This document shows positions 27,258 to 34,154 of a stretch of DNA of 38,717 bases, one piece after another. A model generated the notes under the pieces. That model made no database searches. It was given only the letters and a program-made list of their open reading frames with translations, and was not told the origin of the DNA. A program made the translations under genes and the position numbers. This DNA comes from Polynucleobacter meluiroseus (GTDB taxonomy: Bacteria; Pseudomonadota; Gammaproteobacteria; Burkholderiales; Burkholderiaceae), in the NCBI GenBank assembly GCA_945947155.1, contig CAMEXM010000012.1, positions 1-38,717 of the forward strand, written 5' to 3'. Within the stretch, counting starts at the first letter, position 1. Each line of letters starts with the position of its first letter.

Positions 27258-28805
27258 TCACGGTGCCATTTGGGCGTTTAACTTCACTTGCCGTGGATCG
27301 TGAAGCTTATTTAAGGCCGATAAGTAAGCCTTAGCCGAAGCAGCAATGATGTCTGGGTCGATACCAACGCCGTTCACAATCCGCCCTCCTTTGGCTAAGC
27401 GTACCGTGACCTCACCTTGCGACTGGGTGCCGGAGGTAATGGCATTGACGGAATAAAGCAGCTGCTCCGCCCCGCTTTTGGCCATCGCCTCAATTGCATT
27501 CAGGCTGGCATCCACCGGACCATTGCCCTCTGCCTCAGACGTCATCTTCTCACCGCCCATGTGAAAGACTACCTGAGAGCTAGGACGCTTGCCAGTCTCA
27601 GAATGCTGACTCAGGGAAACGAAGCGATAAAACTCGCTTTCTTCGGCCGAGGCAGAGCCGCTTGTAATGGAAATAATGTCTTCATCAAAGATTTCGGACT
27701 TTTGGTCTGCCAATGCCTTAAAGCGCGAGAATGCGTCGTTGAGCTCCTCCTCAGTCTCGATCGTAATACCGAGTTCCTGCAGGCGCTGCTTAAATGCATT
27801 GCGGCCCGATAACTTGCCCAGCACGATTTTATTTGCTGACCAGCCCACATCTTCAGCGCGCATGATTTCATAGGTATCGCGGGCTTTCAAAACCCCATCC
27901 TGATGAATGCCGGACGCATGCGCAAAGGCATTGGCACCCACCACCGCTTTGTTGGGCTGCACCACAAAACCAGTAATTTGCGAAACCAATTTGGATGCCG
28001 GCACGATTTGCGTTGCATCAATACCCACACTTAAATCAAAGTAATCCTTACGGGTACGCAGCGCCATCACAATCTCTTCGAGGGCCGTATTACCAGCACG
28101 CTCACCTAGACCATTGATCGTGCACTCCACTTGCCGCGCCCCACCGATCTTGACGCCCGCCAAAGAGTTGGCGACACCCATGCCCAAATCGTTGTGGCAA
28201 TGCACCGACCAAATGGCTTTATCCGAATTGGGGATGCGGGTACGCAAGGTGTGAATGAACTCGCCGTATAACTCAGGAACGGCATAGCCTACGGTATCCG
28301 GTACGTTAATCGTGGTTGCACCCTCGGCAATCACTGCTTCCAGCACACGGCATAAAAAATCGACTTCCGAGCGATAGCCGTCTTCGGGCGAGAACTCAAT
28401 GTCGGCAGCTAAATTACGGGCAAAGCGAATCGACTTTTTGGCCTGCTCAAAGACTTGGTCAGGCGTCATGCGTAACTTCTTTTCCATGTGCAATCGACTG
28501 GTTGCCAAAAAGACATGGATGCGTTTTGCGTTGGCTGCCTTGAGAGCATCGGATGCGCGGGTAATGTCGTTTTCATTGGCGCGGGCCAAGGAACACACAA
28601 TCGAATCCTTGACTGCAGCCGCTACCGCTGAAATAGCATCAAAGTCACCTTCGGAGCTGGCTGCGAAACCTGCCTCAATCACATCTACTTTAAGGCGCTC
28701 GAGTTGCCGGGCAATACGGACCTTTTCATCTTTGGTCATGGACGCCCCTGGCGATTGTTCGCCATCACGCAAGGTAGTGTCAAAAATAATTAACTTATCG
28801 GTCAT
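27258..28805 (-). CDS. leuA: 2-isopropylmalate synthase
   Basis: [67 protein letters not shown] at 28805 ([11 protein letters not shown]) preferred over 28832. Confidence 0.97.
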
Positions 28806-28855
28806 CACTGCTCTCCAATCCACTGCCATCATTTAAAAAGGGTACTGCGCAATCC

Positions 28856-28885
28856 AAAACAAAAACCCCAGCAAATTTGCTGGGG
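28856..28885 (-). terminator. Intrinsic terminator (attenuator) in leuA leader
   Basis: Minus strand CCCCAGCAAATTTGCTGGGG followed by TTTTTGTTTT, about 50 nt upstream of the leuA ATG and downstream of a Leu-rich leader ORF. Confidence 0.93.
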
Positions 28886-28942
28886 CCGGTAAGTCTGCTT
28901 GATGATTTATTGCTCCTGCATCACCTAAGCGTTACCCGCCCC
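28882..28942 (-). promoter_or_regulatory. Candidate antiterminator pair of the leu attenuator
   Basis: Minus strand GGGGCGGGTAA (28942-28932) can pair with TTACCGGCCCC (28892-28882) at 10 of 11 positions; the second arm overlaps the 5' CCCC of the terminator stem. Confidence 0.8.
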
Positions 28943-29002
28943 GAGCCGCAGGCTCAGTGCTAGAAGAAGTAGCTTAATTGCGTGCGATTTATTCGTTACC
29001 AT
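28925..29002 (-). CDS. leuL: Leucine-rich leader peptide of leuA (25 aa)
   Basis: ATG GTA ACG AAT AAA TCG CAC GCA ATT AAG CTA CTT CTT CTA GCA CTG AGC CTG CGG CTC GGG GCG GGT AAC GCT TAG = MVTNKSHAIKLLLLALSLRLGAGNA; 7 of 25 residues Leu, four consecutive; followed by antiterminator/terminator structures. Confidence 0.85.
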   Translation of the reverse strand: MVTNKSHAIKLLLLALSLRLGAGNA

Positions 29003-29008
29003 GAATCT

Positions 29009-29037
29009 AATATACCTTAATTACCCATTTAGGTCAG
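29009..29037 (-). promoter_or_regulatory. Predicted sigma70-type promoter of the leuA leader
   Basis: Minus strand CTGACC (-35, 29037-29032), 17-nt spacer, TATATT (-10, 29014-29009); predicted TSS at or near 29002, the A of the leader ATG. Confidence 0.6.
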
Positions 29038-33958: not shown

Positions 33959-34154
33959 TGGTAAGGTCCTTTGCAATTTTCGGCAAAAAATTGTTTAGGC
34001 TGCTCTGTCCCGTGCTTTTGGCCCGAGTTCGAACGGCGCTTGAACTGAATAAAAAACCGCTTCTTGGACGGCCCTCTAATCGGTGAACCTTTAATTGTAA
34101 AGCAATACCTTAAAATGGAGGCATTCTTCCCACACAAGGCCTACCTGTTTTTGC

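Follow-up and report, generated by a model that had tools for sequence, protein, structure and literature searches.

By what means is leuA, the gene for 2-isopropylmalate synthase, controlled in Polynucleobacter meluiroseus? The window, i.e. the whole stretch of 38,717 nucleotides analysed here, carries on its minus strand an ORF whose product gives whole-length LeuA matches, the best ones coming from genomes assigned to Polynucleobacter, and the same pssA-leuA layout is found in named relatives, which are Polynucleobacter. From this synteny and general knowledge of LeuA, we take the ORF to be leuA. The next large ORF on the same strand beyond it starts about 700 nt away, and leuA appears to stand alone. 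Between the stop codon of pssA (29031-29029) and leuA, a short Leu-rich ORF is followed by an intrinsic terminator (Table 1). As judged from sequence comparison, this element is very probably a ribosome-mediated transcription attenuator, which would sense charged tRNA-Leu through a leader ORF that is itself probably leaderless.

Table 1. Features of the leuA leader and its surroundings in the window. Leader nucleotides are counted on the minus strand, nt 1 being position 29002.
Feature	Position	Strand	Remark
-35-like hexamer CTGACC	29032..29037	-	overlaps last pssA codons; 17-bp spacer to -10
-10 hexamer TATATT	29009..29014	-	ends 6 nt before leader ATG
Predicted transcription start, A of leader ATG	29002..29002	-	inferred from promoter spacing
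Leader ORF	28925..29002	-	ATGGTAACG...GCTTAG, 25 codons, stop TAG, peptide MVTNKSHAIKLLLLALSLRLGAGNA
Control codons 11-14, CTA CTT CTT CTA	28961..28972	-	Leu run in all relatives
Small hairpin GAGCC-TGC-GGCTC	28943..28955	-	nt 48-60, codons 16-20, just 5' of antiterminator arm
Region 2, antiterminator 5' arm GGGGCGGGTAA	28932..28942	-	nt 61-71, within leader ORF
Small stem TGATG...CATCA	28900..28923	-	in antiterminator loop; predicted by folding
Region 3, antiterminator 3' arm TTACCGGCCCC	28882..28892	-	nt 111-121, overlaps terminator 5' arm
Intrinsic terminator hairpin CCCCAGCAAATTTGCTGGGG	28866..28885	-	CCCCAGCA-AATT-TGCTGGGG; nt 118-137; in all 78 relatives
U-tract TTTTTGTTTT	28856..28865	-	directly 3' of terminator hairpin
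leuA ORF (2-isopropylmalate synthase)	27258..28832	-	controlled gene; likely start ATG at 28805

The original prediction, made on the window, had placed the leader ORF, the Leu run, the small hairpin, the antiterminator, the terminator and the U-tract, and every one of these coordinates matches. The leader peptide MVTNKSHAIKLLLLALSLRLGAGNA has seven Leu among its 25 residues, and 10 of the 11 positions of GGGGCGGGTAA and TTACCGGCCCC can pair. The small hairpin is possibly a pause or spacer hairpin. A stem similar to that in the antiterminator loop, TTAATG...CATTAA, is found in main-clade relatives. It is to be noted that the fold of the window taken alone is only mildly unusual (z = -2.2), and that promoter and terminator scans of the window gave scores near background. 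Therefore, the strength of the case lies in conservation.

Comparison of leuA upstream regions from Polynucleobacter genomes, 78 of them distinct, established the ORF, the Leu run, the promoter spacing, the alternative pairings and the terminator as shared features of the genus. The expectation that a leader ORF with a Leu run and a terminator would be conserved was borne out in full, since a short Leu-rich ORF and a U-tract terminator precede leuA in all 78, and the Leu run shows synonymous codon drift. The main-clade peptide is of the type M...LLLLALSLxLGAGKA, and MNxSLSLLLLLxLGQNLGSVHA, MNFxFQSLLLLNLLGLDLxIGAG.. and MNTKFFALLLLNLLxLNHxFGVRENALG are found elsewhere in the genus, together with further types. 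In the main clade the positions of Leu are constant while their codons vary; for example, position -13 is CTA in 16, CTT in 14 and CTG in 6 among 38 distinct ends. CTA accounts for 30% of the Leu codons in the leaders and for 2.5% of those in leuA, a 12-fold enrichment. Changes in leader length preserve the reading frame, including a 12-nt insertion (PSGK). This insertion, as PSGK, PSRK or ASGK, lies just 5' of the Leu run, is scattered over the genus (L006, L017, L034, L035, L134 and L140) and alters how far the control codons lie from the ATG. In one further leader (L014, genome G023), the frame changes near region 2 with four extra codons (MLMNFPPLSNLLLLALSIRLGRVRPELMR), and the stop is shifted about 12 nt downstream with both RNA arms retained. 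The N-terminus varies freely, and codon -7 may encode K, R, Q, T, E, S or A, its third base always being G; the conserved C-terminus of the leader is, on this comparison, what the RNA pairing demands.

The antiterminator arm usually lies within 7-21 nt of the ORF's end, and the partner arm changes along with it: the main-clade pair is GGGGCGGGTA/TACCRGCCCC, and other lineages have CTGGGGTCnGTG/CACGAACCCCAG, TTGGGGTTCGTGA/TCACCAACCCCAG or GGGGCCGGTAT/ATACCAGCCCC. On a plain MAFFT alignment, 79.8% of cells are paired in the true register and at most 51.7% in slid registers. Because one sub-clade is out of register on that alignment, pairs were recounted with the arms anchored at GGGG/CCCC, giving 32 distinct arm pairs, and whole arms were reshuffled among species 2000 times as control. 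Anchored positions were paired in 86.6% compared with 79.2% after reshuffling, and 31 cells with double changes were counted compared with 12.3; neither value was reached in any of the 2000 reshufflings. The covariation which had been anticipated for the antiterminator arms is thus present, and it indicates that pairing between regions 2 and 3 is maintained by compensatory changes between lineages. These changes are confined to only a few lineages, so that the evidence from covariation is good, not overwhelming, and the complementarity of the arms in single sequences is often just modestly above that of shuffles. The small hairpin covaries as well, through synonymous changes: its closing pair, which links the wobble bases of two Leu codons, is A-T in 25, G-C in 10, G-T in 3 and A-C in none.

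A feature absent from the original prediction is that the leader ATG lies at the expected transcription start. Throughout the genus, TATATT, TATAGT or a close variant is found 6-7 nt (once 8 nt) 5' of the leader ATG, the apparent exception L038 being a start codon misassigned by the script, and hexamers like CTGACA or ATGACA occupy the equivalent place of the -35 box in several diverged sub-clades. Transcription normally starts about 6-8 nt downstream of a -10 box, and therefore the RNA should begin at the leader ATG. The same spacing was examined outside the genus on leaders of other Burkholderiales picked by leucine content alone, i.e. independently of the promoter: a spacing of 6-7 nt between the best -10 box and the ATG was seen in 43 of 46, compared with 2 of 236 for other ATGs of these stretches. 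The leader ORF is probably leaderless, with its ATG at the 5' end of the RNA. Leaderless mRNAs are known from Burkholderia cenocepacia and from Cupriavidus (PMC4603805; PMC7563307).

How, then, would such a leader control leuA? We infer the transcription start, the stalling of ribosomes, and the leucine response with its direction and size, as follows. Transcription would begin at or beside the leader ATG, so that a ribosome can load once the 5' end emerges. If charged tRNA-Leu is scarce, the ribosome would stall on the Leu run with its many rare CTA codons; GGGGCGGGTAA would then be free to pair with TTACCGGCCCC before the 3' arm of the terminator is made, and the polymerase would enter leuA. 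If leucine is ample, the ribosome would reach the stop codon and cover GGGGCGGGTAA, the terminator would fold, and an RNA of about 145 nt would be released.

Simpler and richer accounts of the same locus can be imagined. Since the hairpin is located directly 3' of pssA, where it would also stop readthrough from upstream, it could be a plain terminator of the ilv-psd-pssA genes, the leader ORF and the complementarity being fortuitous; yet a plain terminator requires none of the conserved Leu run, the frame, the promoter spacing and the covarying second pairing, and this account is scarcely credible. Another possibility is that a longer transcript, made by readthrough from pssA or from an upstream promoter, carries the translated leader ORF, which would then not be leaderless. 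The upstream genes do share the direction of leuA, and GGAG is found 3 nt 5' of the ATG in one sub-clade, but the stretch for a ribosome binding site is occupied by the -10 box plus 6-7 nt throughout dozens of species, which makes the longer transcript improbable. The peptide or the terminated RNA might additionally act in trans, like peTrpL and rnTrpL of Sinorhizobium meliloti, a species for which an RNA derived from the attenuator and the same leaderless layout have been reported (PMC7298713). However, the N-terminus of the leader peptide is free to vary and its C-terminus is explained by RNA pairing (the residue at codon -7 varies while the codon ends in G), and a role in trans is still less probable than a longer transcript.

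More weight has to be given to a trp-type attenuator of four segments, in which a true 1:2 hairpin protects region 2 and the untranslated RNA terminates. The original prediction had called the geometry classical, and folding was used to compare the states of the RNA, with ribosome footprints masked and sequestration of the 5' arm of the terminator scored before its 3' arm exists. For 73 Polynucleobacter sequences, in a footprint model that ignores kinetics and pausing, the median probability of sequestration was 0.75 in free RNA, 0.78-0.79 when a ribosome was stalled on Leu codons and 0.15 when one stood at the stop codon. The trp leader of E. coli, used as control, reproduced the textbook pattern in the same test (0.08 in free RNA and again at stop, 0.85 for a stall at the last Trp codon), while the E. 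coli leu control gave no clear-cut pattern. Thus, the classical order stands for the two ribosome positions, a Leu stall being predicted to form the antiterminator and a ribosome at stop to abolish it; it does not stand for free RNA, which hides the antiterminator arm in E. coli trp and is predicted to antiterminate in 64 of the 73 Polynucleobacter sequences. A small conserved hairpin does lie directly 5' of region 2, as a trp-type attenuator would have it, but in the window and most species it is clear of region 2, and no 1:2 protector of the trp type is found there. With region 2 left uncovered by any protector hairpin, readthrough is expected of untranslated RNA, and the terminator should form only if a ribosome is at the stop codon; in most species, the ribosome itself is the predicted anti-antiterminator. 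This default-on reading is not uniform, since predicted alternative folds hide region 2 in the free RNA of some species (L003, L024 and L025), in line with the trp type, and the terminator arm is still sequestered with a ribosome at stop in 16 of 73 sequences. Taken together, the trp-type alternative is unlikely, less so than those above. If the default-on reading is true, a leader that has lost its start codon should leave leuA switched on rather than off.

How does the Polynucleobacter leader compare with known systems? It has an end-product codon run, a terminator before the gene and a covarying, mutually exclusive antiterminator, which are the marks of a leader-peptide attenuator. Attenuation of leu genes by leader peptides has long been established, and there is a precedent for a leaderless leader ORF. 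In E. coli and Salmonella, leuL is likewise a short ORF with a Leu run before leuA (the E. coli peptide is MTHIVRFIGLLLLNASSLRGRRVSGIQH), followed by a terminator and a competing antiterminator, and the leu operon of Salmonella is reported to be controlled mainly by transcription attenuation (Searles et al. 1983, as cited in PMC7298713). Unlike leuL, the Polynucleobacter leader seems leaderless, its leuA appears alone, and its antiterminator arm is coding sequence by the stop codon. The trpL leader ORF of S. meliloti is also part of an attenuator and is transcribed from its ATG, but it senses Trp rather than Leu, belongs to an alphaproteobacterium, and its peptide is reported to have a role in trans (PMC7298713). 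The trp attenuator of E. coli shares the logic that a stall on control codons frees the antiterminator arm while a ribosome at stop allows termination. In Geobacter, leuA is controlled by a T-box with a predicted leucine-tRNA-dependent antiterminator, which differs in reading uncharged tRNA directly, without a leader peptide (PMC2700814). The icd-II and carA RNA motifs are from the same genus and likewise came from comparative RNA discovery, but their genes and structures differ, and leuA and leucine are absent from the main text of that study (PMC8632094). The window element matched no relevant Rfam family, including Leu_leader (RF00512), at the gathering threshold or at E up to 5, and we found no published description of it or of a leucine attenuator in Burkholderiales. 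An earlier prediction may exist, for example in the comparative survey of Vitreschak et al. 2004 (cited in PMC7298713), which is the likeliest place for betaproteobacterial leu attenuators. The leuA leader element of Polynucleobacter could be deposited as an RNA family.

Within the window, a coarse scan saw no Leu/Ile/Val-rich leader ORF upstream of the ilvI/ilvB-like gene (window 33977-34150), and the attenuator therefore seems specific to leuA in the branched-chain gene cluster. A coarse scan of four Polynucleobacter genomes likewise saw no Trp- or His-rich leaders upstream of trpE and hisG. A covariance model of the element matched exactly once, at leuA, in every one of 22 Polynucleobacter genomes, and had no match in 24 other genera sampled from the family; thus, any link across the order is one of function and promoter layout rather than of RNA homology. 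Leaders of their own, short and Leu-rich, precede leuA at 51 of 76 loci of other Burkholderiales, where CTA accounts for 42.6% of leader Leu codons and 0.5% of those in leuA (88-fold enrichment). The types in Comamonadaceae end in ..LLLxPHGRR, whose CACGGGC can pair with a terminator arm GGCCCGT. Single-sequence complementarity is clearly above shuffles in 5 of 40 of these other leaders, and folding gives 0.84 for the stall, 0.43 for free RNA and 0.52 for the stop, in the same direction as the genus and weaker. As far as these sequences tell, the logic is shared across Burkholderiales while the RNA sequence is not. We tentatively propose, with somewhat more doubt than confidence, an undescribed, order-wide leucine control in which leaderless, Leu-rich ORFs with CTA codons end in the antiterminator arm and only the ribosome permits the terminator. 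If this is true, leuA would be switched on by a block of translation, opposite to what trp-type attenuators do. The proposed mechanism for leuA is testable; it concerns a major genus of freshwater bacteria and, by analogy, Comamonadaceae and other Burkholderiales. The leaderless start also suggests that attenuators may prefer an ATG at the 5' end, since this couples the loading of ribosomes to promoter escape; short leaderless ORFs of such a kind are readily overlooked by annotation.

The leaders of other Burkholderiales are not all alike. No recognisable U-tract terminator follows the types in Burkholderia, Paraburkholderia and Undibacterium. Leu codons and a leaderless promoter without a U-tract terminator are seen in Burkholderia-type and some other leaders (L028, L029, L041, L045, L048, L056, L066, L067, L080 and L081), in which the role of the terminator may be taken over by a Rho-dependent or translational switch. 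In Ideonella, Polaromonas, Variovorax and Diaphorobacter (L069, L084, L096, L104 and L108), leuA lies directly 3' of a frame resembling the C-terminus of LeuA, which suggests tandem leuA genes, and no leader is found within the stretch examined. In other families of the class (L185-L223; for example L187, L190, L196, L206 and L223), leuA has a different Leu-rich leader, ...LLSLRLLLP-stop, for which Rfam gave no match at E up to 0.5 and no U-tract terminator was obvious. An undescribed type of leuA leader RNA may be present here: in several loci the palindrome CTGCCCTAGGGCAG spans the stop codon, and a small hairpin whose loop UGGCGA is conserved on a varying stem, such as ACCC-UGGCGA-GGGU and GCC-UGGCGA-GGC, follows 20-40 nt further in 12 of 40 loci.
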